This document shows, piece after piece, positions 8,126 to 26,616 of a stretch of 64,000 nt of DNA. The position numbers were made by a program, and so were the translations under genes. How positions within the stretch are numbered: the first letter of the stretch is position 1; every line of letters starts with the position of its first letter. The notes under the pieces were generated by a model that did not search any database, was not told where the DNA came from, and worked only from the letters and a program-made list of their open reading frames with translations. The stretch is from positions 209,001 through 273,000 of the forward strand of contig NZ_JAMXSR020000002.1 in the NCBI RefSeq assembly GCF_024124765.2, given 5' to 3'. Source of the stretch: Sphingomonas sp. H160509. Lineage in GTDB: Bacteria > Pseudomonadota > Alphaproteobacteria > Sphingomonadales > Sphingomonadaceae.

Positions 8126-10494
8126 CTAAATCGCTCTAAACTCATTCGCATGCAGGGTCCTAGGCCGGCCAGCACGCAGGCGAATTTGAATTGCGCGTTC
8201 GCCCAGTCTCACCGTCCTCGTACCAGCCTCTGCTGAAACAAGCGACGCGGTGACCAATCGGCCGTCCTTCCAGTGCACATCAATCGCAGTGGAACCGCGT
8301 GTGCGCAGTCCGGTGATACTGCCGCTCGGCCAGGCAGAGGGGGAGGGCGGGCAACAGGAAGATGTCCTCTCCACGACTCTGCACAAGCATCTCCGCTATC
8401 GCGGCTGTTCCGCCGAAGTTGCCGTCGATCTGAAACGGTGGATGTGCATCGAACATGTTCGGGTAGGTGCGCTCCGGACCGAGCAGGAACTTCAGGATGC
8501 CGTGGGCCCGGTCGCCCTCCCGCAACCGTGCCCAGAGATTGATCCGCCAAGCCGTCGCCCAGCCGGTGGCCTTGTCGCCGCGGATCTCAAGCGACCGACG
8601 TGCCGCGGCGGCCAACCGCGGGGTGTCCTCCAGGTTGATCTGGTGGCTTGGATAGAGGGCATAGAGTTGCGACACGTGGCGATGCTGAGGCTCGGGCGCG
8701 TCCGCATCCCAGTCCGACTGCCACTCCTGCAACTGCCCGCCCGTGCCGATCTTGTCAGGCGCGAGCCGGGCTCGCAGGTTTTTGATCTGCGTCACAAATT
8801 CACGATCGACGCCCAGGATGCCCGCCGCTGCGGCTGTCTGTTCGAACAGGTCACGCAGAATCTGCATGTCCATCGCGGGTCCCGCACAGATTGACACGCC
8901 TTTGTGGTGCTCGTTCTCTGGCGAGATGGACGGATTGGTGACCATGTGCCCGGTCGTCGGATCGCGCTGCAGGACATCGACGAAGAACTCGGCGGCGCCG
9001 CGCAACAGCGGGTAGATCGACGCAAGATAGGTCTTGTCCCGTCCATAGTCCCAACGCTCCCATAGATGCGTGCAAAGCCAGGCGCCGCCTGTCGGCCACA
9101 AGCCCCAGGATGCGCCATCGATGGGCGCGGTGGCGCGCCAGAGGTCGGTATTGTGGTGCGCAACCCAGCCGCGGGCACCGTACATGTCACGTGCGGTTCT
9201 CGCGCCGCTTGCAGCAAGCTCCCGGACCATCGCGATCAGTGGGGCGGTGCATTCGGCCAGGCCGGTCGGCTCGGCCGGCCAGTAGTTCATCTCCGTGTTG
9301 ATGTTGATCGTGTACTTGGAGCCCCAGGGCGGCCGCACGCGATCGTTCCAGATGCCCTGAAGATTGGAGGGCTGCGATCCTGCTCGAGACGAGGCGATCA
9401 GCAGGTATCGGCCGTAATTGAAGTACAATGCCGCCAGTGCCGGATCGTCGCTTGTTTCGCTCAGGCGAATGCGCTCGTCGGTAGGTCGGTCGGCAGCGGG
9501 CGTCCGGCCGAGATCGATGCGCACGGTCCCGTAAAGTCGCCGGTGCTCGGCAGCAGCGGTAGCCGCGATACGATCGAACCCGGCGGCCGCAGCCGCTTCG
9601 ATCTGCCTGCGGGTGATTGTGGCGGGATCGCCCCCGACGTCGTTGAAGCCCCGGTAGCTTGTCGCCATCGCGATCAGGATGGTGACCGTCCGGGCGCCGC
9701 GCACGCCAATCTCGCCAGCCCGGCTCTCCACTGTCCCGCCCCTCGTGGAGCACGCGAGCCCGCGCCTCGAACCGAAGTGCGCCGGCGATCCCTTCGCTGG
9801 CGGAATTCCTACCCGACAGGATCAACGTGTCGTCGGCGATCGTCAGCGTTCCGGACTGCGGCGAGCGAAGGCCGATGTCGCAGTCGAGAGAGCCGGCCTT
9901 GCTCGCGACGAGCCGGACCGCGATGACCTGGTGAACCGGGCAGGCGAAAACCGACCGTTCGTGGCGAACGGTTCCAGCGGCGAAGCCCGTCGTCGCGACT
10001 GCCGTATCCAGGTCTAATGCCCGCTCGTAGTCACGGACGGAGTCTGCGGTGATCGTTGGCAGGCTGATGAAGAGGTCGCCTAGGGTTTGATAGGACATCT
10101 GGCTGAGCGGCTTGCCCATTAGCTTGGCGTTGGCCAACGCCTGGGCCTCCCGAAGACGTCCGGCGAAGACCAGTCGTCTTACCTCGGGCAAGGCTGCCAG
10201 CGCGTCAGGGTTGACCGGATTGTACGGCCCTCCCGACCACAAGGTATCCTCGTTAAGCTGAAGTCGCTCATGATCGACACCGCCCAACACCATGGCCCCG
10301 ATGCGGCCGTTGCCGATCGGCAGCGCCTCGACCCAGCGTTCCGCTGGTTGACGGTACCATAGCCGCGTGTCCGGGGATTTGGACGATTGGGCAGCTAGAC
10401 CCGGATGCGGCAGTCCTAGTGCGGCCGCAGTGCCGACAGACCGCTTCAATACGCTCCGACGGGTGAGTTTGCTGGCGTCGTTGATGTCCTGCAC
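8126..10494 (-). CDS. GH95 alpha-L-fucosidase or alpha-L-galactosidase, Tat-exported (two frameshifts)
   Basis: The joined frames give ~790 aa, standard for GH95. The N-terminus carries a twin-arginine signal ([10 protein letters not shown], then a hydrophobic stretch). The N-terminal beta domain has [21 protein letters not shown]. The helical barrel carries the conserved NINTEMNYW asparagines, the acid Glu in QLQEWQSDW followed by [12 protein letters not shown], and [12 protein letters not shown]. Shifts are at C runs 9735-9742 and at G run 8339-8343; removing one base each rejoins ARVLHEGG to TVESRAGE and LLPALP to SAWPSGS. GH95 enzymes are inverting and cut alpha-1,2-L-fucosides; some prefer alpha-L-galactosides. 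The nearby L-galactonate-type pathway makes the second activity a serious option. The start appears to be GTG. Confidence 0.9.
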
Positions 10495-10529: not shown

Positions 10530-13182
10530 TCACTTGGGCAGATCTATCTTCCTTCGGACAGCATACGCCGCGTATGCTCCAGGAATGCCTGCCGCTGGCT
10601 GTCCAGAGCCGAGGGTCAGTCGATACTCTCCGGGGATCAGTTGACGATCGCCTACGGCCGTGACGAAGCTCAGGTCGCGCGGCGACAAGGTGATGGTGAT
10701 CCGCTTCGTCCCGTGCGGGTTCAACGAGACCCGCTCGAAGCCGCGTAGCGCGTGACGCGGAGCGCCCTCGAAGCCCGGCGGCGTGATATAGGCTTGCGCC
10801 ACCTCGTCGCCGGCGCGGTCGCCTGTGTTCGTGACGTCGACCGTGGCGGTCAACCCGTTCTCGATACCGCCCGACGCCGGATCGATGGACAGCTTGCCAT
10901 AGCGGAAGCTCGTGTAGCTCAGGCCATGGCCGAACGGATAGACGGGTGTCCCCTTAAAGTAGCGGTAGGTACGGCCGGCCATGCTGTAGTCGGTGAATGC
11001 GGGCAGGTCGGCGATGCTCTTGTAGAAGGTCAGCGGCAGGCGGCCGGCGGGGTTGACCTTGCCGGTCAGCACGTTGGCGACAGCGAGACCGCCCGACTGC
11101 CCAGGATACCAGGCCTCGACGATCGCGGCGGCATTGTCCCTTGCCCAGGACAGGTCGATCGCGCTGCCGTTCATCGCCACCACGATCAGCGGCTTGCCGA
11201 GCGCCCTGGCCCGTTCCAGCAGCGCGCGCTGGTCCGCAGGGATATCCAGCGTTGTCTTGTCGCCGCCCGAGAAGCCCTCGATCTTGATCGGCATTTCCTC
11301 GCCCTCCAGATCGGAAGTGAGACCGACCACGGCGACCACGACGTCCGCGTTTGCCGTACCGGATTTCAAGTCGCGATCGAGATCGTCGGTAATCCTCTTC
11401 CAGAAGATCTGGGCCGGCGGCGCAATGTCGCTTTCGCCTTGAAGGTTGATCGCTACCCGATCGCCTTTCCTCAGCCGCGCGTCGACCAGCTGCAGCGGCT
11501 CGGCCCAACGGGAGTAGCGTTTCGCCTCGACCAGCGGCTTGCCAGCAAGCGACAGCGTGCCCTTCACGCCGGTTAAGGCGAGACGATAGAGTCCGGTCTC
11601 GGGGACGACGAGCGAACCGGAGAACAGGACCTTGTGCTTGTTCGCGACCTGGCGGAACTCCGACGCGCGCGAGACGATGCTGGGCTCCACGCTGGTCAAG
11701 ACCGGCTTGGCTGCGAAGCGCCGCTCCGCCCCGGCCGGGACTGCATTCTCGTCCAGAGCATTGAAATATTCGGTGCGGATGCCCGGGCGACCGTCGGGGG
11801 GTGACCAGCACCGAGCCCGGTACGGGATCGCCATCGGTGACGGAGGCGGTGAACGGCACGACCGTCACGTCCGCGCCGGGCATTGCCTGCCTCAAACCAT
11901 CGGCGACCGAGATCGGGGAGCGCTCCGCGTCGAGGAGTAGTTGCCGCGCAGCACGCGTGTGGCGTCGGACAGCGGTCCGATCAGCGCTACCCTGGTGCCT
12001 GGACGGAACGGCAGCGCGCCGTCGTTCTTGAGCAGCACGAGGCTCTTCTCCGCCGCGGTCAGCGCCAACGCGCGGCTTTCCGGCGTGTCGATCGCGCTGA
12101 CCGATGTCGCGTTCGGCTTGCGCGCGGACAGACCGGGCAGGTCGCCGTTGCGGTAGCGAGCCGAAAAGAGGCGGACGAGCGCGGTGTCGATGTCCTCCGT
12201 GCGGATATACCCGCGTCGCAGAGATTCCGTATAGCGATCGCCCAGATCCATGCGACCGCCCAGCGTGGCGTTGTTGCACTCGTTGTCGACGCCGTGCGTC
12301 AGCGCCACTGCGACGCCGGTCGGAGCGTCAGGCGCGTATTTGTGATGTTCGTAGATGTCGACCACCGAGTCGCAGTCCGACACGACATAGCCCTTGAAGC
12401 CCCAGGCGCCGCGGAGATAGTCGCGCAGCAATAGCTGGCTACCGCATGCCGATTGACCATAAACGCGGTTGTACGCGCACATGATCGAACCCGCCTTCGC
12501 ATCGACGATCGCCGCGCGGAACGCCGGGAGGTAGGTGTCCTCCAGGTCATGCGCCGTCGGGTAGATGTTGTCGACGTGGCGGCTCTGCTCCGGGCCGCTG
12601 TGCACCGCGAAATGCTTCGGTGTCGCCACGACGTTCGGCAGATCGGGATTGTCGCCCTGGATGCCGTCGACGAACGCAACGCCGATCCGCGCGGTCAGGA
12701 ACGGGTCCTCGCCATAGGTCTCCTGTCCGCGGCCCCAGCGCGGATCGCGGAAGATGTTGATGTTGGGCGACCATGTGTCGAGCCCGGTACCGATGCGCCC
12801 CAAGCGCCCCGTCCGTCGGCCTAGCGTATGTAGTCCCTGCACCTCCGTACTGATCACTTCAGCCACGCGGCGGACGAGGGGCGCGTCGAACGTGGCTGCC
12901 AGGCCGATCGGCTCCGGGAAAGTTCGTCGTCGGCACGCCGCCCATCGCGCCATGCAGCGATTCCGTCCACCAATTGTAGGCGGGAATGTTCAGACGGGGG
13001 ACGGCCGGCGCGGTGTTCAACAACTGCGCCACCTTCTCGTCCGTCGTCAGCTTGCCGACGATCTCGCGCGCCTTCGTATCGGCTTGCGCCCGCGCGCCGG
13101 CTTGCGCGTTCGCCGGTGCCGCGACGATGGCAACAGCGAGAGCCAGCGACGAACCGGTGCTTATGATTAGCGATTTCAGCAT
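10530..13182 (-). CDS. GH3 beta-glucosidase/beta-xylosidase with PA14 insertion (three frameshifts)
   Basis: The joined frames give ~880 aa: signal peptide (~1-26), GH3 N-terminal barrel with nucleophile Asp in GYVVSDCDSV and KHFAVHSGPE, a PA14-like insertion (around RTEYFNALDENAVPAG to KRYSRWAEP), the GH3 C-terminal domain (FSGGDKTTL, NGSAIDLSW) and a fibronectin-III-like end (FGHGLSYTSF). Shifts occur at 12916-12918 (one extra G), 11915-11918 (one G missing) and 11796-11801 (one extra G). GH3 enzymes of this architecture remove terminal glucose or xylose from oligosaccharides in the periplasm. I chose the ATG at 13182 because GGAAAGG lies just upstream and the signal peptide begins there; an in-frame ATG exists at 13197. 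Confidence 0.87.
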
Positions 13183-13252
13183 GGGTAGCCTTTCCATTGC
13201 GCTCTCGCGCAGCACGTATCTGTCAGCGTTCCGGCGATTCTATTCTCGAGTG

Positions 13253-15274
13253 TCATTCGGAGTTCAGGATCGCCACCGCACCGCCCGAGGGCGCTAAGTT
13301 AAGCGAGAGCGGCCGTCTTCCTCCGATGCGCGTGGAGAGGGTCTGCAGGCTGTTCATGGTGTCGCCATCCTGCCAGACCCGCGCCTGCCAGTTGCGATTG
13401 CCTTTTCCCAGGAACGACAGCGGGACAGTAATTTTGCGACCGGTCTCGTTCGTCATCGCGCCGACGTACCAGGTTCCGCCCTTGCGCCGGGCCACCACGA
13501 CGTACTGGCCGATCTCTCCGGTCAGAAATCGCGTCTCGTCCCAGCTTGCTGGTACATCACGCAGGAAGTCCGCGCCTTCCTTAAGCGTGCCGTCGGCCGC
13601 GACATAGCTGTCCGGGCTATCCGAAAGCATCACGACCGGGCTGTCGTAGACGACGTACATCGCCAACCCGTGGCCGCGCGTCGTCATCACATACGGACGC
13701 AGCGAACGTACCTGCGTCGCGAACTCGGCCGGCGGCAACGCGCGGAACCCGCCCGGCGTGTAATCCATCGGTCCCAGTAGTCCGCGCGTGAAAGGCAACG
13801 TCACATTGTGGCTGGCGGTGATCCGCGTCCCGAACTTGTTGTATTCGGCACCGAGCACACCTTCCTGCGTGACGAAATTCGGCCAAGTGCGTGCCAGCCC
13901 ATCGGGGGGATAGGCGCCGTGCAGATCGACCATGAGATGATGCTCGGCCGCCTTCTTGAGCAGGCGGTGATAGAAAGCGACCATCTCCTGATCGTTGCGG
14001 TCCATGAAATCGACCTTGATCCCCTTGATGCCCCACGAAGCGTAAAGGGGGATGGCGGCGTCGAGCTGCCGTTCAAGCTGCTTCCACTGCAGCCACACCC
14101 ACACGCCAACGCCGCGCTCTGCGCCGTATTTTACGACGCCGGGGATATCGACTTCGGGTTTGGGCACGGTGACATCGGCCGGGGCAGGCCCTTCTGAGCT
14201 CCCCTTGTACCAGCCTTCGTCGATCAGGGTGTATTCCAGCCCCATCTTCTGCGCGAAGTCGATGTACTTCTTGAACGTCGCGGTGTTGACGCCCGCATTG
14301 GGCAGGTCGACCGCCCAGCCGTTCCACCAGTCCCACGCGGACTTGCCCGGCTTGATCCACCTTGTGTCGGCGATGCGGGACGGCTCTGCCAGCAGCTGGA
14401 TCAGGTTGGATGGGATAAGATCGCCCGCCGTATCGCCAAGCATGACCACCCGCCATGCGGTGGTCAGCGGCCCTTCCAGCAAAGAGGCGTGAACGGCGGT
14501 CCTGAATCCTGCACCGTCCTGCGCATTGTCCGGCCTGGTCGTCAGGCTGATGTTTACTCCAAGCCCGCCGTCGCCGCGGCCGCGCAGGTAGGCTCCAGCA
14601 TAATCGCGCTTGTCCGACTCCGCGATCGCGAACGTCGTGCCCTTGCCCGTCGCGCACAGTAGGGGAGCGTCGTACAGGTGAAAGTTGCGCATCTTCGACG
14701 CCTGCACGGCATCGAACTCGAACTCATGGCTGTTGACGTAGGTGCCAGCGTTGGCACCCCAGCAGCCATAGTCCGCCGGAAAATAGAAAGCTGTGGTTTC
14801 CCAATAGACGTCGAGCGACTTGAACCGGTCCTGCGCGGGCACGACGAAGCGGAACGCTACTCCCTCTGCATAAGCACGGGCAATCAGGTCGAAGCGGACG
14901 GCGTCACGCTTGCGCAGCAGATGGAGTGTAAGCTGGTTGTAGCTGTCGCGCACCTGCGACGCCTTGCCCACCACGGGGCGGTAAACGTCGTTGACCGCCG
15001 TTCGATCGGTGCCCGTTACCTCCACCCCTTCGCCGCCAAGCGCACCCTGATCGGTGAACAGGCCGACCGGAGAGGGCGCGAGCACCGTCTTGCCATCGCG
15101 CGATACGGTGAAGCGCAACTTGCCGTTGTCCGACGTCACCTCGATGCGGTTGCGCCGGTCCGGGGATACCGCATCGGTCGGCGTCTGGGCGATCGCAACG
15201 CCGGGCAGCGACGAAAGAGCGAAACCAACCAGCGCCATGGCGGTCCGCAGCCGATTTCGTTCGATCATCCGCAT
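13253..15274 (-). CDS. Exported GH97 alpha-glucosidase/alpha-galactosidase
   Basis: The protein is 673 aa with a signal peptide (~1-28) ending at VAIAQ. It has the GH97 N-terminal beta-super-sandwich, the catalytic barrel (WDWWNGWAVDLP, TLIDEGWY, GIKVDFMDRNDQEM, MVDLHGAYPPDG, TQEGVLGAEYN) and the C-terminal beta domain. GH97 contains both inverting alpha-glucosidases and retaining alpha-galactosidases, and I cannot assign the mechanism securely. The frame stays open upstream to 15790, but AAGGGGG at 15280-15286 precedes the ATG at 15274. The gene is divergent from an IclR regulator, so the intergenic region probably drives both. Confidence 0.88.
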   Translation of the reverse strand: MRMIERNRLRTAMALVGFALSSLPGVAIAQTPTDAVSPDRRNRIEVTSDNGKLRFTVSRDGKTVLAPSPVGLFTDQGALGGEGVEVTGTDRTAVNDVYRPVVGKASQVRDSYNQLTLHLLRKRDAVRFDLIARAYAEGVAFRFVVPAQDRFKSLDVYWETTAFYFPADYGCWGANAGTYVNSHEFEFDAVQASKMRNFHLYDAPLLCATGKGTTFAIAESDKRDYAGAYLRGRGDGGLGVNISLTTRPDNAQDGAGFRTAVHASLLEGPLTTAWRVVMLGDTAGDLIPSNLIQLLAEPSRIADTRWIKPGKSAWDWWNGWAVDLPNAGVNTATFKKYIDFAQKMGLEYTLIDEGWYKGSSEGPAPADVTVPKPEVDIPGVVKYGAERGVGVWVWLQWKQLERQLDAAIPLYASWGIKGIKVDFMDRNDQEMVAFYHRLLKKAAEHHLMVDLHGAYPPDGLARTWPNFVTQEGVLGAEYNKFGTRITASHNVTLPFTRGLLGPMDYTPGGFRALPPAEFATQVRSLRPYVMTTRGHGLAMYVVYDSPVVMLSDSPDSYVAADGTLKEGADFLRDVPASWDETRFLTGEIGQYVVVARRKGGTWYVGAMTNETGRKITVPLSFLGKGNRNWQARVWQDGDTMNSLQTLSTRIGGRRPLSLNLAPSGGAVAILNSE

Positions 15275-15439
15275 GCCATCCCCCTTACATCGTCTTTGCG
15301 CCAGACTAGCCAACCTCTCGAACCTAGGCCACCGCTTTTTCGCAGGTGAGAGGCAGGTCTCATTAACAAAAATGAACTGGCTTTGCGCTGCGGCGCAATC
15401 CGCCATAGTGTGAAGCACGCGAAAGGTTGGGGTAGGTCG
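15275..15439. promoter_or_regulatory. Divergent promoter region of GH97 and the IclR regulator
   Basis: This 165-bp gap separates two divergent genes. It includes an inverted repeat TCATT-aacaaa-AATGA at 15360-15375, a possible IclR operator. Similar TTCTCAT words occur near 19635 ahead of the lactonase gene, also a target candidate. Assignment is by position only. Confidence 0.35.
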
Positions 15440-16222
15440 GTGGAACGCAAAGACGTCAAGGGCACCTATGCCGCTCCTGCACTGGAGAAGGCGTTCGAGA
15501 TCATTGAGCATTTGGCCGAGTACCCGCAGGGCATGCTGCTCAGCGAAATGGCGGTCCGGCTCGGGCGTACCGTCGGCGAGCTGTTTCGCATCGTCATTGT
15601 GATGGAGCGGCTCGGCTACCTGCGTAAATCGGCAACAACCGATCACTACACCGTCGCCTACAAGCTGCTCGACGTCGCAATGCGCGCGACGCCGGCCCAG
15701 CATCTGGTCCGCGCGGCGACGCCGGTGATGCAGGGGCTGGCGCTCGCCGCCGGGCAATCTTGCCATCTGGTCGTTGCGAACGGCGGCCATGGCCTTGTCG
15801 TCGCCTGTGAACAGCAGCCGGGAACGCGCGGCTTCTCGCTGCGCGTTGGGGCACGGATCGACATGATCATCAGCTGTTCGGGGCAGGTGATCCTTGCGTT
15901 TTCAGGCGAGCAGCGCGCACACCAGATCGTCGCGGCCGTCGAGCAGGAGCGGGCGGCACCGGTAGACCGACGCGCGCTCGCCGAGAGTCTGGCGGTCATT
16001 CGCGAGCAGGGATATGACAGCCGCAGGAGTCCGATCACTTACGGCGTCACCGACATCAGCTTCCCGGTGCACGGCTTCGACGGCAACGTCGTCGCTGCGC
16101 TGACGATTCCATTCCTGGAGCTGATCGACGGATCGCAGAAGATAGGGCTGGACGCGGCACGGGGGCTGCTGCGCGAAGCGGTAGCTGCGATTTCCGACAC
16201 GCTCGGCTATCAAGCCGGGTGA
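15440..16222 (+). CDS. IclR-family transcriptional regulator
   Basis: About 260 aa. The N-terminal winged helix-turn-helix reads ALEKAFEIIEHLAEYPQGMLLSEMAVRLGRTVGELFRIVIVMERLGYL, and the C-terminal effector-binding domain includes FSLRVGARIDMIISCSGQVILAF and QGYDSRRSPITYGVTDISFPV. IclR proteins bind small sugar acids or aromatic acids and control adjacent catabolic operons. This one lies between the glycosidase block and the sugar-acid pathway genes. The frame is open upstream to a TTG at 15383, but the GTG at 15440 begins the conserved part and is preceded by a G-rich Shine-Dalgarno-like stretch. Confidence 0.9.
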   Translation: MERKDVKGTYAAPALEKAFEIIEHLAEYPQGMLLSEMAVRLGRTVGELFRIVIVMERLGYLRKSATTDHYTVAYKLLDVAMRATPAQHLVRAATPVMQGLALAAGQSCHLVVANGGHGLVVACEQQPGTRGFSLRVGARIDMIISCSGQVILAFSGEQRAHQIVAAVEQERAAPVDRRALAESLAVIREQGYDSRRSPITYGVTDISFPVHGFDGNVVAALTIPFLELIDGSQKIGLDAARGLLREAVAAISDTLGYQAG

Positions 16223-17509
16223 GTCACTTCCGGCGAGATTTGCCGGGCATAGACCGCGATGGCGACAAAGCAGGCGAGCGGTAGCAGCATTGCGACCGGC
16301 ACCGCGCCGGCGCGCACCGCGACCAGACCCATCAGCGGGGGAAAGATCGCCCCGCCGATGATCGCCATGATGATGAAAGAGGAGCCGAGCGGCTTAGCCG
16401 GCCCGGTCCCTTCGATCCCGAGCGCAAAGATCGTAGGGAACATGATCGACATGAAGAAGCTGGAGACCATCAGCGCGCCGACCGCGATCCACCCGCCCGC
16501 AAACGCTGCAACCGCGCACAGAATGACATTGGCGAGCGCATAGGCGCCGAGCAGCCGCGCCGGCCGCACCCGCGCCATTATTGCCGTGCCGCTGAACCGG
16601 CCGATCATGAACAGAACCAGGCTCGCCGAAAGGAGGAACGCGGCGTTCCGCTCCGTCACCGACGGCGTCACGTCCTTCACGAAATCGATGAAGTAGCTCC
16701 AGATGCCAACCTGGGCGCCGACGTAGAAGAACTGCGCGATCACAGCGCCAACTAGCGGTCGGTGACGGGAGAGGCGGCGGAACTGGTCGGCCAGGCTCGC
16801 GCCGTCGTGCGGCTGGGCGGCGGGGGAGGCGGGTCACCGCCACCGCGCCAGCGACGAGCAACGCCGCCAACGCGAGGAGGGTATAGGGAAGCTGCACCGT
16901 GCTCGCTTCGCTCGCGCGATAGGCGGCGAGCGCGGCTGGGCTCATCGCCTCTACGGTCGCGGAGGAATGTTCCACGCCCGTGAAGATCAGCAACGCGCCG
17001 ATCACTGGCGCCAGGCACGCGCCCAGACCGTTGAACGCCTGCGCCAGGTTCAGCCGCTGCACCGCTGTTCCGGGGTCGCCGAAGGAACTGGCATATGCGT
17101 TTGCCGTCGTCTCCAGGCACGCCGCCCCCGCCGCGATCATGAACAACGCGAACAGGAACGCGCCGTAGCTGAGCATCAGGGAGGCGGGAAAGAACAGCAG
17201 CGCGCCGCCTGCATACAGCAACAGTCCCGTAAGGATTCCCGCCTTGTATCCAAAGCGCCGCATCAGCAGGCCAGCCGGCAGCGCGACAACGAAATAGCCG
17301 ATGTAGAATACGAACTGAATGAAACCGGCTTGCGCGCGATCGAGACCCAGCGACTTCTGGAACTGGCGGATCAAGATGTCGTTGAAGTTATTCGCCAGCG
17401 CCCAAAGGAAGAACAGGCTGATGATCAGCACGAAGCCGAACCGGTAGGTTGGCGTGATGAAGGAACCTCCCGCTTCGGCGGGTTCCATCGGGCCCGTATC
17501 TCCCATCAT
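16210..17509 (-). CDS. MFS sugar:proton symporter, FucP family (frameshifted)
   Basis: The joined frames give ~430 aa with about 12 membrane helices. The N-terminal half (FGFVLIISLFFLWALANNFND, IRQFQKSLGLDRAQAGFIQF) matches the L-fucose/glucose-galactose permease family. The second half starts at GAVIAQFFYVGAQVGIWSYF. A single extra base in the G run 16822-16826 separates them; without it VTRLPAAQPHDGASLADQF reads through. The end overlaps the 3' end of the convergent IclR gene by 13 bases. It lies just downstream of the aldo/keto reductase, so it probably imports the aldose that this enzyme oxidises. I chose the ATG at 17509 because AGGA lies close upstream. Confidence 0.87.
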
Positions 17510-17552
17510 CGCCGTCCTGCTCCCTGTACGGTTATCGTTGTGGCGCTCATGC

Positions 17553-18566
17553 TCAGGCGGTCGGTGTCGGACAGTCACCGCTTACCAGACCCTCAGCGCG
17601 CAGTGCCTGCCAGAAAGCGGCGGGGATCGGCAGGCGGATAAGATCGGCCGTCTGCTTGATCCGGTCGGGACTGCCGGTGCCGAGCACCACCGTCGCGACC
17701 GCAGGATGGGCGGCGGCGAACTGCAGTGCCGCCGCCGGTAGCGGCACGCCGAACTGCTCACAGCACCGCTCGATCGCGGCGACCCGGCCGATCACCTCCT
17801 CGGGAGCGATGCCGTAGTCATAGTGCGGCGGTTCTCCCCGCGTGCCAGTAGCAAGGATTCCAGAGTTGTAGACTCCTGCGCCTACCACGCCAATTCCTCG
17901 CGCGCCGCACTGCGCGAGGAAACGCTCCGCCTCCTGCTCGAGCAGGGTGTAGCGACCTGCGATCATCAGCAGGTCGAGATCGGCGTGCGCGAGGCTCGCC
18001 TCGCAGACCGCGATTTCGTTTACGCCCAGCCCGATCGCAGAGACTACACCCGTGTCGCGCAGCTCCGTCATCGCGCGGAAGCCGCCGTCCACTGCCTCCG
18101 CGAAGGTGCGGTCGTGGTCTGCGCCGTGAGTCAGGCGGCCGAGATCGTGCATCAGGAGCACGTCGATCCGCGCCAGCCCCAGCCGGTGCAGGCTTGCCTC
18201 GACCGAGCGCATGACGCCGTCGTAGCTATAATCGTACACGGGATCGAACGGCATCGGCGAGTGGAAGCCGAACCGCTCGTCGGCAGCACCTCCGGGTACC
18301 AGAAGCCTTCCGACCTTGGTCGACAGTAGGAACGCATCGCGAGGCCGCTCGCGCAGCGCATCGCCTAGTCGTCGCTCGCTAAGCCCAAAGCCATAAAAAG
18401 GTGCGGTGTCGAAATAGCGCACACCTTGATCCCAGGCACCGTTCACCGTGGCGCGCGCTTGAGCGTCATCGATTTGGCGGTAAAGGTTGCCGAGCGTGGA
18501 TGCGCCAAATCCGAACGGACCGCTCGCCGCTAGGCGTTGGAGAAAGGCTGTGCGGGATGTCTTCAT
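17553..18566 (-). CDS. Aldo/keto reductase, aldose 1-dehydrogenase type (L-fucose/L-galactose dehydrogenase)
   Basis: The 337-aa protein has the AKR barrel and tetrad: Asp53 and Tyr58 in YFDTAPFYGFGLSER, Lys84 in STKVGR and His140 in LLMHD. The extended FDTAPFYG..SE pattern and the long loop with DYSYDGVMRSVEASLHRLGL are typical of the D-threo-aldose/L-fucose/L-galactose 1-dehydrogenase group, which oxidise the anomeric carbon with NAD(P) to an aldonolactone. It sits between a FucP-type permease and a Zn-dehydrogenase on the same strand and is divergent from a lactonase of COG3618. This supports the first oxidation step of an L-sugar pathway. Confidence 0.85.
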   Translation of the reverse strand: MKTSRTAFLQRLAASGPFGFGASTLGNLYRQIDDAQARATVNGAWDQGVRYFDTAPFYGFGLSERRLGDALRERPRDAFLLSTKVGRLLVPGGAADERFGFHSPMPFDPVYDYSYDGVMRSVEASLHRLGLARIDVLLMHDLGRLTHGADHDRTFAEAVDGGFRAMTELRDTGVVSAIGLGVNEIAVCEASLAHADLDLLMIAGRYTLLEQEAERFLAQCGARGIGVVGAGVYNSGILATGTRGEPPHYDYGIAPEEVIGRVAAIERCCEQFGVPLPAAALQFAAAHPAVATVVLGTGSPDRIKQTADLIRLPIPAAFWQALRAEGLVSGDCPTPTA

Positions 18567-18579
18567 GGGTTTGGGGCCT

Positions 18580-19590
18580 TCAGAAGCTGGCGATTGCCTT
18601 CACCACATGGTCCGCCTCGGCGATCAAGCCGGGCAGGCGCTGTGGCAGGTCATCGGCGAGAAGGCTGTGGGTGTGCAGCGCCGCCGTCGGGATCTCGCCG
18701 GCGAGGATCGCCTCGCGGACGCGTTCGAAATCCGAGGCGTGTGCGTTGCGGCTGGCGAGCAGGGTGGTCTCCCGCTTGTGCAATTCCGGATCGGAGAAGA
18801 CCAGGTCGCCCGGAGCGACCCCGACCAGCACCAGCTTGCCGCCGTGCGCGACATAACCGAGGCTCTGCGCCATTGCAGTCAGGGAACCTGTGGCGTCGAA
18901 CACCGTGTCGAACATTTCGCCTCCGGTACGCTCCGCCAGCGACCCGTCTAGGTCGGCCGTCGCATCCGCCGTGTCGTCGAACCCCAGCCGCTCGCGCGCA
19001 TAGGCAAGCCGCGGGAGGCGGGTGTCGGTGAGGGTTACTTCCGCACCGTTGGAACGCGCGAACAGCCCGCAGGCAATGCCGATCGGCCCCGCGCCCACCA
19101 CCAGCACGCGCTCCCCCGCCGCCACCGCCGCGCGTGCGACCGCGTGCGCACCGATCGCCAGGAACTCGATCATCGCCGCCTGATCGAGCGTCAACCCGGT
19201 TGCGTCGAGTAACGCGCTCTCGGGGACAGCGAGCAGCTCGGCCATACCGCCGTCGGTGTGGACGCCCAGCACCCGGATGTTGACGCAGGCATTGGGCTTG
19301 TCCTTCCGGCACGCGATGCAGGTCCCGCAGGTCAAATACGGGTTGATCGCGACCTGCTGGCCGACATGGAAGGGCGACATGTCGGAGACATGCTCCACCT
19401 CGCCGGAGAGTTCGTGTCCCATGACGCGTGGATAAGCCAGAAAGGGATGCCGTCCGGCGTATATATGATAATCCGTGCCGCACAGCCCGACGCGGCGGAC
19501 GCGGACGATCACCTCCCCCGGTGCCGCCATGGGCGCGGGCCGCTCCTCTATCGTCAGGTTATACGGCTCTTGGCAGACGACCGCTTTCAT
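18580..19590 (-). CDS. Zn-dependent alcohol dehydrogenase, L-galactonate-5-dehydrogenase-like
   Basis: 336-aa medium-chain dehydrogenase. Catalytic zinc ligands lie in GLCGTDYHIYAG and MGHELSGEV. The structural zinc loop is CGTCIACRKDKPNAC. The nucleotide site is VVGAGPIGIACGLFARSNG. It resembles the E. coli YjjN-type group acting on hexonates. With the neighbouring tagaturonate-reductase-like and altronate-dehydratase genes, the most economical role is L-galactonate to D-tagaturonate. An alternative is a threonine- or sorbitol-dehydrogenase-like enzyme acting on L-fuconate. RBS GGAAAGAAG precedes the ATG. It is 13 bp from the AKR gene and probably co-transcribed. Confidence 0.8.
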   Translation of the reverse strand: MKAVVCQEPYNLTIEERPAPMAAPGEVIVRVRRVGLCGTDYHIYAGRHPFLAYPRVMGHELSGEVEHVSDMSPFHVGQQVAINPYLTCGTCIACRKDKPNACVNIRVLGVHTDGGMAELLAVPESALLDATGLTLDQAAMIEFLAIGAHAVARAAVAAGERVLVVGAGPIGIACGLFARSNGAEVTLTDTRLPRLAYARERLGFDDTADATADLDGSLAERTGGEMFDTVFDATGSLTAMAQSLGYVAHGGKLVLVGVAPGDLVFSDPELHKRETTLLASRNAHASDFERVREAILAGEIPTAALHTHSLLADDLPQRLPGLIAEADHVVKAIASF

Positions 19591-19688
19591 TGCGCTTCTT
19601 TCCGTTCAGACTAGCCCCCCGTACTAGACGACCATTCTCATATGTGCAACTTGGCTATCATCCTTGAGAAATGAGAACGGCCTCGCGA

Positions 19689-20523
19689 ATGCGAATCGAC
19701 GCGCACCACCATCTCTGGCGATACGATCCCAGCGTGTTCGGCTGGATCGCGTCCGGCTCTGCAATCGCGCGGGACTTCGCAACGGAAGATTTGAGATCGG
19801 CATTAGAAGATGCCGCGCTTGATGCGGCGATCGCGGTGCAGGCGCGGCAATCGCCAGAGGAAACCCGCTTCCTGCTCAACGCCGCGCGGCAAGAGCCAGA
19901 CATCATTGGAGTCGTCGGCTGGATCGATCTGCGCGCACCCAATATTGCAGCCCTACTGGACGAGAACGCAGATCCGCTCGTCGTCGGTTATCGTCACGTG
20001 GTGCAGGACGAGGACGAACCCGACTTCCTTCTCGCCGGAGAGTTCATCGACGGTGTCCGCGCGGTAGTAGAGCGGGGGGTTAACCTACGACCTCCTCGTG
20101 AACCACGCGCAGCTCGAAACCGTCCCGCATTTCCTCGACAGGGTGGGCGAAGGACGCTTCGTGCTCGATCATGCCGCGAAGCCCGACATCGCTGGGCAGG
20201 GATGGCAGCCTTGGGCGGACCGTATCTCCGCCGTCGCCGAGCGGCCAGACGTGTGGTGCAAAGTGTCGGGGCTGGTGACCGAGGCCGATCACACCGCGTG
20301 GACGCCGGATGACGTCGAGCGCTACCTTGATCATGTGCTGGCGGTGTTCGGTCCTGAGCGGCTGATCTGGGGGTCGGACTGGCCGGTATGCCTGCTCGCC
20401 GCCTCTTATGACCGCGTGGTTGATCTGGTCGCCGACTGGGTCGTGCGATGCTGCCCGGACGCGGAGGCGGCGATCTTCGGCGGTAATGCGCTACACGCCT
20501 ATGCGATCGGGCGCGCGCGATGA
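19689..20523 (+). CDS. COG3618 amidohydrolase: aldonolactonase (L-fucono/L-galactono-lactonase type), frameshifted
   Basis: The joined protein (~277 aa) starts MRIDAHHHLWRYDP, with the HxH metal motif near the N-terminus. It continues with TYDLLVNHAQLETVP, FVLDHAAKPDI and ends near LIWGSDWPVCLL, which supplies the conserved Asp. This is the pattern of the lactonases that open fucono-, galactono- or rhamnono-lactones. The frame breaks at a run of six G at 20074-20079; removing one joins VVERG to LTYDLLVNH. An earlier in-frame ATG exists at 19671. The gene ends in an ATGA overlap with the next gene and begins the plus-strand part of the sugar-acid cluster. Confidence 0.82.
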
Positions 20524-21640
20524 TCCTCCAGTTTGGCACCAGCCGTTTCCTTCAGGCGCATGTCGATCTATTCGCGTCCGAGGCTCGCGATGCGGGCCAG
20601 ACGGTCGCCGACATCGTGATCGTGCAGGTGAGCGACGACCCGGTGCGCGCGCAGCGGCTGGTCGCGTTCGACAACGTCGCGGGTTTTCCCGTCGTGATCC
20701 GGGGGCTGGAGGGTGGAGTGCCGGTCGAGCGTACCGTGCAGGTGCGCAGCGTCGTGCGGGGTTTGGCGGCTGCGCACGACTGGTTGGAGCTCTGTGCGCT
20801 GTTCGTTGGGGCGGTTACCCATGTCGTGTCGAATACCGGCGACCATGGTTATACGGTTCCGCCAGAGGATCGCATCACGCTGGCCGACGATCGGCCCCCC
20901 GCGCAGTTTTCCTGCAATCCTGCTCGCGCTGCTCCACCGCCGCTGGCGGTTCGGCGGGGCGGGGGTGACGTTCCTGCCGTGCGAATTGGTTGCGGGCAAC
21001 GGCCAGACCCCTGCGCGCGGCAGTGCTCGATCTCGCGGAGCAGTTGCGGCTGCCGCCAGCATTCGTTGACTGGCTTGGCGTCGCCTGCCTCTGGGTGGAC
21101 ACGCTGGTCGACCGGATCGTCAGCGAACCAATTAATCCTGCCGGCGCGGTTGCCGAACCATATGCTCTGTGGGCGATCCGCGACCAGCCAGGGTTGGTCT
21201 TGCCTTTCACCCATCAGGTGATCGTCGTCACTGACGATCTGCCCCGCTTTGAACGGTTGAAGCTCCATATCCTCAACCTTGGGCACAGCTGGCTGGCCGA
21301 ACGCTGGCACCGCGCCGGGGCGCTGCCGGACGCCACGGTGCGGCATGCGATGGCGGATGCGGACATGCTTGCTGACCTGCGCCGTCTCTATAACGACGAA
21401 GTCGTGCCTGGCTTTGCCGCCGGGGGCCTTGGCGACGAGGCGGCGACCTATGTCGGCAATACGATAGACCGGTTCGCCAACCCGTTCATCGAACACCGCT
21501 TGGCCGACATCCACGCTAGCCATGCGGCCAAGATTGCTAAACGCGTCGGCGGTTTCGTCGACTGGGTCGACGCAAGCGGGGGCGAGGTTCCGATGCCGGA
21601 ACTGCGCGCGCTTGCACAACGCTATGAGGTGAAGGAATGA
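20520..21640 (+). CDS. uxaB: Mannitol-dehydrogenase-family oxidoreductase, tagaturonate-reductase-like (two frameshifts)
   Basis: The joined frames give ~373 aa. The N-terminus ILQFGTSRFLQAHVDLF is the dinucleotide-binding motif of polyol/uronate dehydrogenases. VSNTGDHGYT, FLPCELVAGNGQTLR and VDRIVSEP follow as in UxaB/UxuB. Two extra C residues, in the runs 20895-20900 and 21008-21011, break the frame. UxaB reduces D-tagaturonate to D-altronate. It overlaps both neighbours by ATGA junctions, so lactonase, reductase and dehydratase are translated as one unit. The symbol is by resemblance; activity on another hexulosonate is possible. It is shorter than E. coli UxaB (~480 aa), as in the subset lacking some C-terminal helices. 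Confidence 0.78.
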
Positions 21641-23133
21641 CAGTGCGCGCGTTACGTTTATCGGATCGTGACGACGTCGCGGTGCTCATCGACGCCGCCG
21701 CGCCGGGGGATTCCGTACTGGGGATCACCGCGCGCGAGGCCATGCCCGGCGGACATAAGATGGCGCTCCATCCGCTCGCTGCAGGGACGGTGGTGCGAAA
21801 ATACGGCTATCCGATCGGCATCACCACTCGCGACGTCGTGGCGGGCGAGCATGTCCACAGCCACAATCTGGCGCTACCCGAACACAGGCTTGCAGAAGCC
21901 ATCGCCGGATTACCGCACGCGCGCGCCACTGCTCCAGACGGGGCGACGTTCGAGGGGTATCTGCGCGCCGACGGCGGCGTCGGTACACGCAATGCGATCG
22001 GGATCATAGCCAGCGTCAACTGCTCCTCCACGGTAGTTCGTCGGATTGCGCGTGGATTCGAAGACCGTCTTCCAGCAGAAATCGACGCGGTCGCGCCGTT
22101 CACCCATTCAAGCGGGTGCGGCATGTCGCGCTCAGGCGAGGGATTCGAAACGTTGGAACGCACGCTAACAGGCTACGCCCGCCACCCAAACTTCGGCGGG
22201 GTGCTGCTGGTCGGTCTCGGCTGTGAAGTGGCGCAGATCGACGACATGCTCGCGCGTCACGACCTGTCGCCGGGTCTGCGGCTACGCACGCTGACGATTC
22301 AGGAGGCGGGTGGTACGGCGGAGGCGATCGCTCAGGGCAGTGCAATCGTCGCTGAGTTGATCGAGGAGGCGTCGGTCGATCGCCGTACGACCCGCTCTGC
22401 CTCTGATCTCGTGCTTGGACTGCAGTGCGGTGGGTCCGACGGATGGTCGGGCGTGACCGCGAACCCGGCACTGGGCGCAGCGGCCGACCTGCTAGTGGCG
22501 GAGGGCGGCACCGCTATCCTTTCCGAAACACCAGAGATCTACGGAGCAGAACATCTACTGCTCGCGCGCGCGGCGTCGCCAGAGGTCGCGGCGCAACTCT
22601 CAGAGCGGATCGCGTGGTGGGAGGATTACGCTACACGCCACGGAGCCAGCCTCGACAACAATCCGTCGCCGGGCAACAAGGCAGGTGGGCTCACGACCAT
22701 CTACGAGAAGTCTCTCGGCGCAATTGCAAAGGCTGGGACGGCACCGCTCGCCGATGTGCTGCTCTACGCAGAGCAACACAAGCGGCGCGGGCTCGTGTTC
22801 ATGGACTCTCCAGGATATGACCCGTGCTCGGCCACTGGTCAGATTGCCACAGGCGCAAATTTACTCGCCTTCACGACCGGACGAGGTTCGGTATTTGGAG
22901 CGCAACCCACGCCCTGCCTCAAGCTCGCGTCCAATCCCGTGCTCGCACGGTCGATGGCAAACGACATTGACGTAGACTGCTCGCTGATACTGGATGGGGC
23001 AACGCCGAAAGAAATTGGTCAAGTTGTTTATCAAACGATGCTCGAGACGGCATCTGGTAAGCAGACCAAGTCCGAAGGACTTGGTGTCGGTGACTTTGAA
23101 TTTGTGCCGTGGCAGCTAGGCGCTTGGATGTGA
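21637..23133 (+). CDS. uxaA: Altronate dehydratase, UxaA family
   Basis: Intact 498-aa protein with both parts of UxaA: the N-terminal SAF-like domain (DRDDVAVLIDAAAPGD, GHKMALHPLAAGTVVRKYGYPIG, HVHSHNL) and the large dehydratase domain (GYLRADGGVGTRNAIGII, HSSGCGMSRSG, GLQCGGSDGWSGVTANPALG, PGNKAGGLTTIYEKSLG). The family removes water from D-altronate to give 2-keto-3-deoxygluconate using a metal centre. UxaA homologues also take part in L-fucose catabolism in Campylobacter, so dehydration of L-fuconate is an alternative. The ATG overlaps the preceding stop (ATGA). It is the last gene of the plus-strand operon. Confidence 0.9.
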   Translation: MTVRALRLSDRDDVAVLIDAAAPGDSVLGITAREAMPGGHKMALHPLAAGTVVRKYGYPIGITTRDVVAGEHVHSHNLALPEHRLAEAIAGLPHARATAPDGATFEGYLRADGGVGTRNAIGIIASVNCSSTVVRRIARGFEDRLPAEIDAVAPFTHSSGCGMSRSGEGFETLERTLTGYARHPNFGGVLLVGLGCEVAQIDDMLARHDLSPGLRLRTLTIQEAGGTAEAIAQGSAIVAELIEEASVDRRTTRSASDLVLGLQCGGSDGWSGVTANPALGAAADLLVAEGGTAILSETPEIYGAEHLLLARAASPEVAAQLSERIAWWEDYATRHGASLDNNPSPGNKAGGLTTIYEKSLGAIAKAGTAPLADVLLYAEQHKRRGLVFMDSPGYDPCSATGQIATGANLLAFTTGRGSVFGAQPTPCLKLASNPVLARSMANDIDVDCSLILDGATPKEIGQVVYQTMLETASGKQTKSEGLGVGDFEFVPWQLGAWM

Positions 23134-23601
23134 GTTCTGGTACAATTCTAGTCAGCACAGATGACCTTATAGTATCCAGGTTTAGGGTTTGACGTCACCA
23201 TTGTGCCAATCGGATAGCGAGGGGTGCCATGACGAGGGAAGTGTCTGTCGCGTATGGCATGTCGTTGCCCTTTGCCTCATCAGCGAAATACCTCGACTTT
23301 TTCGACATCAGCACTGCGATTAATCAACATGTATACAATGCCATATCGTTGACTGCTTACGAGACTCTATCGCTTGTGCTTCGCATAAGAACGATCATGC
23401 CCTCGATCCGCCATCCTCACAAGACAACACATTTTACTAGAAGAATTGCAGTTGCATAAATGAAAACAACAGGGCACGTTAGCGTCGCGTTGCACTAAGA
23501 TATGGCAAGGGAGAGGTTGCGCGAACGAGCGCACCCCCTTCCGCAGCTGAGAAGAAGATAACGTTACCAGGAATAAGCTGGGCGGTTGGGAGAGGATCAT
23601 A
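23134..23601. other. Intergenic region, 468 bp, upstream of the TonB receptor
   Basis: AT-richer than the flanks. A 76-codon frame at 23229 has no family features and is not supported. It should hold the promoter and operator for the receptor operon. I could not pick out a convincing palindrome. Confidence 0.5.
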
Positions 23602-26600
23602 ATGGCAATCGAGTTTAGAACGTTGCGTACGCACAAGCTGCAGATTGGGGCGACGAGTCTCATGGCAATCGCTGCTTGTCTGCATGCTGTGCCTGCCTTG
23701 GCACAAGCGCAGGACGTGCCCGCCGCGTCATCGCCCGTCGCACCCGAGGGTACTATCACCACGGCTACTCCTCAACAGATAGCGCCCGCTGCGCCGGATC
23801 CCGCTACCGGTGAACCAGCGTCGACGGACATCATCGTTACCGGATCACGCATTACGACCGGTGGTTTCACCGCGCCGACGCCGACAACCGTGATCGACGC
23901 CAATGCCATTGCCGCCAATGCACAACCAAACGTCTTCACGACCATAGCTCAGTTGCCGTCGTTGCAGGGATCGACCGGCACGAGCACCGGCACGTTCAGC
24001 ACATCGAGCGGCGCCCAGGGGCTTAGTTCCTTCTCGCTGCGCGGCGTTGGTGCGATCCGCACCCTGACGCTGATCGATGGTCAGCGTGTCGTTGGTGCCA
24101 ACGTCACCGGCGTGCCCGACGTAAGCCTGTTCCCGCAGATACTCATCAAGCGTGTCGATGTCGTCAACGGCGGTGCCTCGGCTTCCTACGGGTCCGACGC
24201 GGTCGGCGGGGTCGTGAACTTCATTACCGATACCCGGTTCAAGGGCCTGAAGGGCAACGTTCAGGGCGGCATCACCACGTACGGTGACAACGAACAGGTA
24301 CTCCTCCAGCTTGCCGGCGGAACGAGGTCTACTCAACGATCGCCTCCATATCGTCGGGAGCACCGAATACGCGCATGAAGACGGTATCAAGGGAGGAGGT
24401 TTGGGCACCGACCTTGCAAGCGGGCGGGACTGGTTCCGGCAGACTACCTTGATCAATCGAAACGTCTTCAATGACGGATCACCCCAATACCTCGTCCGGG
24501 ACTACTCCCAGCAATACAGCTATACGAAATTCGGGCTGATCACCGCCGGCCCGCTGCAGGGCACGGCCTTTGATCAGTCTGGCAACCCGTTTCAGTTTCA
24601 GTATGGCTCAAATGGCGTACCTTCACGTAACGCGTCAGGTTCCGTAATTGGCTGTTTCCCCGGAAGTTGTCTTGGAGGCGACCTATCGGGAAACGTCGAT
24701 GTAGGGCGCTCGCTTCAGTCGCGACTGCAGCGGGTGGCCAATTATGGTCGGATCGGGTTCGACTGGGCGCCTGACAACGAGGTCTACGTCACTGCCAACA
24801 TTGGTCAGGTGAAAACCAACAACCAGCCGATCGGAGGTATGAACCGTCCGAACCTGACGATCCAGTGCGCCAATCCGTTCGTACCTGCGTCGGTTCAGGC
24901 TGCCTGCACCACCGCGGGGATCACGAGCTTCGTATACGGTACGAGCAACGCCGCCTTGGGGAACACCCAAGTCTATACCGATCGCCGTCAGTATCGTTTC
25001 GTCGCCGGTGCCAAGGGCCGCCAATCCGTCGCCGGGTCCGACTGGACCTACGACATGTACTTCGAACACGGCACCAACTATTCGAACATCGACGTCAACA
25101 ACGTCATGCTGTCGAACCGTTTTAACCAGGCGATCAATGCGACCACGGTGAACGGAGCGATAGTCTGTGCCAATCCGGTTGCGCGTGCGAACGGGTGCCA
25201 GCCTCTCAACATTTTCGGTGGCAATCCCTCGCAGGGGGGGCGCTCGGCTACATCATGCCCGACAACGGCCCGTACCAGAGGACCCGCCAGACCCAGGACG
25301 TGATCAGCGTCAACTTCTCGGGTTCTCCGTTCAGTCTGTGGGCGGGGCCCGTCTCGTTCGCGTTCGGCAGCGAGTTCCGGCATGAATTCTATACCGTGCG
25401 CGCCGATCCATACGGCGCAGGTACTAGTGCGACGCCAAACACGCCAGATTACCCCGCCGATCCTACGCTACTGCCCGGGGGCAACAACTGGTACGCTGGG
25501 AACTACAAGAACGGCAGCGGCGCCTACAGCGTTAAAGAGGCGTTCGTCGAAACCAACGTGCCAATCCTAAATTCGGAAGGGACCGGACGCGCGGCAATAA
25601 ACGGCGCGATCCGGGTAACCGATTACAGTACTTCGGGCACCGTTTGGGCCTGGAAGATTGGCGGCACCTGGGACTTGCCGATCGACGGGTTGCGTTTGCG
25701 TGGTGTGACCTCTCGCGATGTTCGGGCACCGAACTTATCGGAACTGTTCGCTGCACCGACGACTACGACGCTACCTGGATTTTTCGATCCGTTCCGCAAC
25801 GTCAACGTACTCGCAATCCAGAATACGATAGGCAACTCCGCCCTCACGCCCGAGATCGCACGTAACACCACCGCTGGCATCGCCTTTTCAGGCTCCTCTT
25901 GGCTGCCTGGTCTCAGCCTCTCGGTCGATTACTACCACATCAAGATCAAGGACGTGATCTCGAGCCTCGGCACCGGGGACATCGTCAACCTCTGTTTCCA
26001 GAATATCCTTCCCGAGACCTGCAGCGCGTTCAACCTCAACAACTCCGCCGGGCCCAACTTCATCAACGTTCAGGCGTTCAACCTCGCCTCGATCGACACC
26101 AACGGGCTGGATATCGAGGCAAGCTATCGCTGGCGGCGTCCGCTCGGTCTGCCGGGCAGCTTCACGCTGCGCGCGCTTGCGACCAACATCCGCAAGTTCG
26201 CGACCGATACGGGCCTTCCCGGAACGATTCCAATCGACAGCGCCGGCGTCAACGCCGGAAACACACCCGACTGGAAATGGCTGGCGACGCAGACCTATGC
26301 CAATGACGACTTCTCGCTGTTGCTGCAGGAGCGCTGGTTCAGCGACGGGGTGTTCGGTAGCCAATATGTAGAATGCTCGGCTGGTAATTGTCCCGTGTCG
26401 ACGAACAATCGACCGACGATCGACAATAACTTCATGCCGGGCGCTTTCTATATGGACGTTGGCGGCACGTATAACCTGACCAAGCAGGTCACCGGTTATT
26501 TCAAAGTCGACAACGTGTTCAACAAGGAGCCGCCGGCGTTCCCGAATTTCGTCAATCCGGCGCTGTATGACATTGCGGGTCGGACTTTCCGGGTCGGCCT

Positions 26601-26616
26601 CCGTTTCAGCATGTGA
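23602..26616 (+). CDS. TonB-dependent outer-membrane receptor, oligosaccharide type (two frameshifts)
   Basis: The joined protein is ~1000 aa. A signal peptide (~1-36) is followed by the TonB-box region (DIIVTGSRI), the plug (FSLRGVGAIRTLTLIDGQRVVG, RVDVVNGGASASYGSDAVGGVVNFIT) and a 22-strand barrel ending in FRVGLRFSM, whose terminal aromatic/Met ending fits an outer-membrane protein. Breaks lie near 24312-24325 (one extra base) and at the seven-G run 25234-25240 (one base missing). RBS GAGAGGA precedes the ATG. It is followed on the same strand by GH42 and GH31 genes, so uptake of a plant oligosaccharide, probably from xyloglucan, is inferred. No SusD-like gene is present, as usual outside Bacteroidota. 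Confidence 0.9.

Follow-up and report, generated by a model that had tools for sequence, protein, structure and literature searches.

Which sugar does a compact oxidative gene cluster of Sphingomonas sp. H160509 degrade, L-galactose or L-fucose? The cluster lies in a stretch of 64,000 nucleotides that was analysed at its full length (hereafter the window; positions 209001-273000 of contig 1, in a genome of 4.84 Mb rated 80.6% complete). Six catabolic genes, located at 16210-23133 of the window and arranged as two divergent operons, encode a FucP-type permease, an aldo-keto reductase (AKR), a zinc-dependent dehydrogenase (ZnDH), a lactonase, a compact UxaB and a UxaA. An original prediction, drawn from the DNA letters, had proposed L-galactose as the substrate; this is still the best reading, and the evidence for it, which consists of homology and gene context, is now stronger with the finding of a separate L-fucose-type locus. 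We would put at about two in three the probability that 16210-23133 is a dedicated L-galactose catabolic locus, carried by Sphingomonas near strain Leaf208 and distinct from a predicted L-fucose locus of the same genome.

Gene content and proposed route

The operons diverge from a gap at 19591-19670. The minus-strand operon comprises the genes of ZnDH (18580-19590), AKR (17553-18566) and the permease (16210-17578), and the plus-strand operon those of the lactonase (19671-20523), UxaB (20520-21640) and UxaA (21637-23133). ATGA overlaps link lactonase to UxaB at 20520-20523 and UxaB to UxaA at 21637-21640. Both couplings had been reported in the original prediction, and open reading frames and family profiles also place and identify the genes as it did. 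An IclR-family regulator (PF09339 and PF01614) is encoded at 15440-16222 on the plus strand, its start being fixed from the Leaf208 orthologue.

The permease, of the MFS type, would import L-galactose as a symporter; its Leaf208 orthologue scores 384 bits against TIGR00885 fucP (cut-off 280). The AKR, a predicted L-galactose 1-dehydrogenase, would oxidise C1 to give L-galactonolactone: five PDB sequences match it at E<=1e-20, all of them named L-galactose dehydrogenase (E 3.5e-29 to 2.5e-24). The amidohydrolase-type lactonase, which we take to belong to COG3618, would convert L-galactonolactone into L-galactonate; its Leaf208 orthologue reaches 268 bits against L-fucono-1,5-lactonase (cut-off 400) and matches 4dlf with E 1.5e-51. 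ZnDH is 99.4% identical to its Leaf208 counterpart, 39.8% to LgoD from E. coli and 31.3% to RspB, and a stretch SDPE(F/L)HK(K/R)ET / SRNA is common to ZnDH and LgoD but missing in RspB. As a predicted L-galactonate 5-dehydrogenase, it would oxidise C5 and thus yield D-tagaturonate. The compact UxaB, a predicted tagaturonate reductase, would then reduce C5 from the opposite face to form D-altronate; its Leaf208 orthologue scores 199 bits against tagaturonate reductase (cut-off 359), with the final 112 positions of the profile unmatched, versus 46 bits against fructuronate reductase.

The last enzyme of the cluster, UxaA, is encoded by an unbroken gene (498 aa) and is the sole full-length member of its family found in the H160509 genome. 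It carries the SAF, GD_AH_second and GD_AH_C domains and is predicted to dehydrate D-altronate to D-2-keto-3-deoxygluconate (D-KDG). Four of its cysteines are common to four aligned family members, and four conserved cysteines of the UxaA/GarD superfamily have been described as likely iron ligands (PMC6336799; this and the other papers cited by PMC number are drawn on from the excerpts available). Since L-galactonate and D-altronate are C5 epimers (PMC12632266, in part), oxidation and re-reduction at C5 interconvert the two acids. The oxidation/reduction pair would therefore let an acid of the L series enter the D-KDG pool, which is also fed by glucuronate.

The chain had been called complete: the six genes do end at KDG, and the kinase-like and aldolase genes lie elsewhere in the genome. 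A candidate KDG kinase is a PfkB protein that best matches the kinase portion of a fusion of 2-keto-3-deoxy-6-phosphogluconate (KDPG) aldolase and kinase (248 bits, cut-off 700); together with a KDPG aldolase (TIGR01182 eda, 222 bits; cut-off 156), it would complete KDG breakdown. The KDPG aldolase is not in the cluster: on contig 1, of which the window covers 0.21-0.27 Mb, the two genes of this family that were found lie at 1.80 Mb and 3.82 Mb. The same contig carries a glucuronate locus (1652000-1671000, L096), with genes for glycoside hydrolases (GH) of families GH67 and GH3, UxaC, ManD and a TonB receptor that is 60% identical to that of the window.

The original prediction overlooked that three of the six genes are split by indels. 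In the H160509 assembly, the genes of the permease (1-nt insertion near 16826), lactonase (near 20074) and UxaB (near 20895 and 21008) are each read in at least two pieces, as are several adjacent glycosidase genes and a receptor gene broken by indels of 1-2 nt; the three cluster genes are unbroken in Sphingomonas sp. Leaf208, the closest named record fetched for the region (94.1% DNA identity over 21.0 kb). Compared with Leaf208, 18 indels of 1-2 nt occur in 21 kb; most of them fall within or next to short runs of G/C, and a few are intergenic. The frameshifts are probably sequencing errors, given the unbroken cluster in Leaf208 and the completeness rating of 80.6% for the H160509 genome. Across 8129-31813 of the window, many long genes contain such indels, a sign of an unpolished long-read assembly.

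A second locus, probably for L-fucose

A second locus (L118), with genes of the L-fucose type, is located on contig 1 at about 3.906-3.914 Mb, 3.7 Mb from the cluster. It encodes an IclR regulator, a flavin mononucleotide (FMN)-dependent dehydrogenase, a FucP paralogue, two short-chain dehydrogenases/reductases (SDR), an enolase-type dehydratase, an FAH-family hydrolase and a protein of the PF05336 mutarotase family, this family being assigned from the Leaf208 copy. From gene context, we take the FMN dehydrogenase, SDR and FAH proteins to be LldD, a 2-keto-3-deoxy-L-fuconate (L-KDF) dehydrogenase and an L-KDF hydrolase, respectively. The Leaf208 hydrolase has as its best NCBIfam name 2,4-didehydro-3-deoxy-L-rhamnonate hydrolase (402 bits, cut-off 500), i.e. 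the L-rhamnonate analogue, and an SDR and the FAH hydrolase of the locus are 75% and 79% identical to genes of a relative's cluster. The dehydratase gene is in two pieces in H160509, 99% identical to the Leaf208 form, which scores 550 bits against the L-fuconate dehydratase 1yey of X. campestris; the top PDB match is 4ip4 (716 bits), an unnamed mandelate racemase-like protein. These assignments suggest that the second locus likely serves L-fucose. It looks complete for an oxidative catabolism of this type and is unbroken at L120.

The enolase-type L-fuconate dehydratase, the keto-acid dehydrogenase and the hydrolase are absent from the window, and the best matches of the genome to them lie together at about 3.91 Mb. 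The earlier statement that an enolase-type fuconate dehydratase is missing thus holds for the window and fails for the genome, where one lies 3.7 Mb along the contig. Since the same genome has this separate locus, a role of the window cluster in L-fucose use only is unlikely, and L-fucose as the sole substrate was set aside. Furthermore, if L-fucose has its own genes there, including paralogues of the permease (50% identity) and of IclR (48%), the cluster should serve another sugar, and its LgoD/UxaB/UxaA tail points to L-galactose.

The alternative that survives best is a system shared by both sugars, in which permease, AKR and lactonase would accept L-galactose as well as L-fucose and only the acids would diverge, towards ZnDH/UxaB/UxaA or towards the enolase dehydratase. 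Neither a lactonase nor an AKR was matched at the L-fucose-type locus, which weighs against a strictly dedicated cluster, and because of this the AKR and the lactonase of the window may serve both sugars. In addition, the lactonase family takes its name from L-fuconolactone, and clusters that merge the two gene sets exist in relatives (e.g. L009, L010 and L015). However, the L-fucose-type locus has its own FucP paralogue, mutarotase-family gene and IclR, and its second SDR may be a sugar dehydrogenase. Moreover, the known AKR LguA takes L-galactose and showed no activity on L-fucose (PMC12632266, excerpt). We therefore regard full sharing as unlikely.

A remnant of a UxaA gene (78 of 242 profile positions) was also detected, at 3928915-3929139 of contig 1 in H160509 and at G001:C23:14038-14262 in Leaf208, in both strains some 15-16 kb away from genes of the L-fucose type. 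It resembles the decayed remains of a second dehydratase. The genome that includes locus L005 encodes two UxaA proteins of full length, the second of them (G004:C1:991691) some 17 kb away from the L-fucose-type genes there.

The cluster in relatives

The surroundings of ZnDH were compared in the best 80 of 589 relatives of this enzyme, over up to 10 kb on either side, some of these loci ending at contig ends. With thresholds of at least 40% identity over 200 aa for UxaB and over 300 aa for full-length UxaA, UxaB lies near ZnDH in 40 loci and full-length UxaA in 31, and both do in 23 (Fisher p 0.0011). All five enzymes (AKR, lactonase, ZnDH, UxaB and full-length UxaA) are encoded by nine of the 80 loci, two of which are near-relatives of the window. 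The co-location of the five enzymes is more than chance. For instance, their genes are collinear in Trinickia (L045), behind genes of an ABC sugar importer, and four other loci (L047, L050, L066 and L067) have the same enzyme order according to tblastn.

This association bears on a second alternative, in which UxaA would directly dehydrate L-galactonate (or L-fuconate) to an L-series 2-keto-3-deoxy acid, ZnDH and UxaB having another role. According to PMC6336799 (excerpt), a single UxaA/GarD protein acted to some degree on four acids (D-arabinonate, D-altronate, L-fuconate and L-galactonate), and unpublished data are the basis for naming an Acidovorax member an L-galactonate dehydratase. However, direct dehydration leaves ZnDH and UxaB without a role, whereas both accompany full-length UxaA in the 23 loci mentioned above, and we consider it very improbable.

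A shorter UxaA paralogue, which has no SAF domain (checked in L015), is found in 12 of the 80 loci. All 12 contain an L-fucose-type SDR, FAH or enolase gene, and in none does the paralogue adjoin a full-length UxaA. A heteromeric L-fuconate dehydratase was assigned by gene context in Paraburkholderia (PMC6336799, in the part available), and we infer that the shorter paralogue is of the same type, although the small subunit of such an enzyme was not recognised by Pfam in L015. L-fucose-type genes and ZnDH are merged in one locus in nine cases (L009, L010, L014-L016, L024, L034, L041 and L071), eight of which have UxaB. In the genomes of L009, L010 and L015, only one UxaA-family dehydratase was found, which hints at dual-specificity dehydratases in merged clusters. 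A tree of 45 proteins of the UxaA family was tried as a guide to the substrate: it groups the window sequence with five from Sphingomonadaceae, apart from the 12 shorter paralogues, and cannot name the substrate because the branches of E. coli UxaA and GarD are very long and raise a warning of joined long branches. In a metagenome-assembled genome of Lysobacteraceae (L032, 2624-10655), ZnDH has a gene of the tryptophan halogenase family (PF04820), IclR and GH95 in its vicinity.

A sample of 60 genus-mates, taken as Sphingomonas since the named near-relatives are and overlapping the 80-locus set, contains 25 genomes with ZnDH, 22 with L-fuconate dehydratase and three with compact UxaB. In these three (G032, G065 and G070), UxaB always lies within 3.1 kb of ZnDH, and L-fuconate dehydratase is found in none. 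UxaB, lactonase, IclR, permease, ZnDH and GH95 are encoded together in G065, without AKR or UxaA in that stretch. ZnDH and L-fuconate dehydratase co-occur in the sample (both/ZnDH only/dehydratase only/neither: 15/10/7/28, p 0.0025). Their pathways thus travel together, and this alone favours neither sugar.

Genus-mates also bear on the possibility that ZnDH is an alternative aldose 1-dehydrogenase instead of a 5-dehydrogenase. In L149, L150 and L153, its gene adjoins those of a lactonase and of a mutarotase-family protein, with no UxaB. However, AKR (E<=1e-40) occurs in all 25 genus-mates with ZnDH versus two of the 12 tested among the 35 without it, an association confounded by the fact that AKR can adjoin the L-fuconate dehydratase gene, and the sequence match of ZnDH to LgoD also makes a role at C1 most improbable. 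It is hardly credible that UxaB and UxaA serve D-galacturonate from pectin with a UxaC from elsewhere: the genome does have one UxaC and a single full-length UxaA, but its only UxaC match lies at 1.66 Mb, beside ManD and GH67 and outside the cluster, and AKR, lactonase and ZnDH would be left unexplained.

Several further observations weigh against L-galactose as the dedicated substrate. UxaA matches E. coli GarD (35%, 276 bits) as well as E. coli UxaA (36%, 273 bits), its single NCBIfam match is galactarate dehydratase (356 bits, below the cut-off of 731) and its top PDB match is also a galactarate dehydratase. Sequence alone cannot tell altronate from galactarate for this enzyme, and since UxaA and GarD score alike, the altronate assignment rests on the neighbouring genes. 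The scores of UxaB and lactonase fall under the NCBIfam cut-offs, and half of the cluster genes (3/6) are broken in the H160509 assembly. Compact UxaB is lacking in 22 of the 25 ZnDH-bearing genus-mates, so in many cases ZnDH has a different partner or task. UxaB is also near the shorter UxaA paralogue in six of the 12 loci that have it. In L009 and L010, a single UxaA is paired with L-fucose-type genes, with no enolase dehydratase found at E<=1e-60; UxaA may therefore not be specific for D-altronate. Finally, the GH95 enzyme encoded beside the cluster (8129-10494, minus strand, split; PF22124) is nearer, judging from its L005 orthologue, to XacAfc95 (7kmq, 965 bits) than to an L-galactosidase (4ufc, 662 bits), and XacAfc95 is very specific for L-fucose (PMC8245568, excerpt).

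Regulation, sugar source and known systems

A 16-base motif, about TYTCATATATGCAAST, was derived from the regions upstream of ZnDH in seven relatives, picked after viewing those of 13 loci. The weight matrix excludes the window and its near kin, though the Leaf208 site helped find the register. Of the 13 loci, L005, L010, L013, L016 and L024 were left out, and L068 was dropped though its site helped fix the register. With this matrix, the two best sites in the 64 kb are TTTCATTTATGCAACT (23450-23465, minus strand; 17.8 bits), upstream of the TonB receptor gene, and TCTCATATGTGCAACT (19636-19651, plus strand; 17.4 bits), in the divergent promoter; the next one scores 12.3. In 16 of 200 random windows the best hit reached 17.4 or more, so the weight lies in the presence of both sites in these two promoters. 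None of 200 column-shuffled motifs reached 17.4 upstream of the receptor gene (maximum 16.0), and in L005, whose DNA around the receptor site differs in large part, this site is conserved but for a single change. Scanning for the operator with a plain consensus did no better than chance (3 found versus 3.6 expected). The sequence at the L-fucose-type locus, TTTCATATCTGAAAGT, is related to the motif but distinct from it. IclR is thus predicted from these sites to bind both the divergent and the receptor promoters, and it would couple uptake through the TonB receptor with catabolism.

The TonB-dependent receptor gene (23602-26616, plus strand; labelled by reading) is in three pieces in H160509 and was delimited by tblastn with the 1003-aa Leaf208 protein. 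Besides GH95, genes of GH3 (10530-13215, split) and GH97 (13253-15406) flank the cluster on one side, on the minus strand; on the other side, the receptor gene is followed on the plus strand by GH31 (26927-29594, split) and GH42 (29705-31813, split; PF02449 and PF08532 on its middle piece). GH3, GH97 and GH31 were identified by family scan and tblastn to Leaf208. Genes of GH43, GH2 and a GDSL esterase lie farther out. The window also contains transposase genes at 43950-46318 and 56098-57528, namely a gene with a Mu-type transposase C-terminal domain and its IstB_IS21 partner, and a DDE transposase.

The neighbouring GH95, GH97 and GH31 enzymes may free the sugar from side chains of plant hemicellulose. 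In B. ovatus, GH31, GH97 and GH95 act jointly on corn xylan and the GH95 releases L-galactose (PMC4491172, in the available part). The proposal that GH95 can release the sugar is nevertheless ambiguous, as the family includes alpha-L-galactosidases as well as alpha-L-fucosidases but the nearest solved GH95 is the L-fucose-specific one. A Thr/His residue was considered as a guide to this specificity. The window enzyme has Thr, which decides nothing because a Thr-bearing GH95 is specific for L-fucose and a T395H change left the preference unchanged (PMC8245568). GH95 occurs in the fetched stretch around ZnDH in seven of the 80 loci and in five of 26 genus-mate loci.

A wider and more tentative view, which we hold to be doubtful, is that H160509 has two regulons with the look of an ancient duplication, given the roughly 50% identical permease and IclR paralogues and the distinct operators: one for L-fucose and one for L-galactose, the latter including the TonB receptor and GH95, GH97 and GH31 enzymes that would free L-galactose from cereal-type glucuronoarabinoxylan. 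If true, a dedicated L-galactose-from-hemicellulose regulon would be described for the first time in Proteobacteria, as far as the literature matches listed go. Plant cell walls contain L-galactose as a minor sugar, and its use by bacteria has been worked out in few organisms in the literature found. A compact cluster beside glycosidases that could free this sugar and apart from an L-fucose-type locus makes bacterial discrimination of the two near-identical sugars testable, and it gives a context to zinc dehydrogenases, AKRs and UxaA homologues that are named only by superfamily in databases. Among the literature matches listed (titles and abstract openings), no publication deals with such a locus in Sphingomonas or Paraburkholderia.

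By predicted enzyme role, the cluster is like the L-galactose pathway of Phocaeicola (Bacteroides) vulgatus, with an AKR acting as L-galactose dehydrogenase, a lactonase (reportedly Bvu0220, in work said to be that of Hobbs in 2014) and an L-galactonate dehydrogenase producing D-tagaturonate. Unlike it, the cluster of the alphaproteobacterium Sphingomonas also holds UxaB, UxaA, a FucP-type permease and IclR. BVU_0219/BVU_0222 of P. vulgatus are cited for this pathway in PMC12632266 (excerpt), which also describes lguABCDEF of Luteolibacter sp. LG18. There, two paired dehydrogenases and enzymes of the UxaB and UxaA types, whose roles are those predicted for ours, convert L-galactose to KDG through L-galactonate, D-tagaturonate and D-altronate. 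The Sphingomonas cluster lacks the KDPG aldolase (lguE) of this system and has a lactonase, a permease and glycosidase neighbours. As far as the available part of PMC12632266 goes, no organism has the six lgu orthologues while lacking lguG, i.e. for L-galactose only.

The tail that inverts C5 via tagaturonate and altronate is like LgoD/UxaB/UxaA of E. coli, and Halomonas lgoD-uxaA-uxaB loci were predicted to use L-galactonate (PMC5507952, in part). Unlike these systems, which begin at L-galactonate, the Sphingomonas cluster is predicted to admit the free sugar, and its UxaB is compact (372 aa in Leaf208 versus 483 aa). Non-phosphorylating L-fucose pathways likewise have an aldose dehydrogenase, a lactonase and a FucP-type permease at their loci, but the dehydratase, keto-acid dehydrogenase and hydrolase typical of them lie at a separate locus in H160509 (compared with the excerpts of PMC11199699 and PMC6336799). 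Altogether, the pathway itself is already known, from P. vulgatus, Luteolibacter and the E. coli tail, and it is the gene arrangement that is new.

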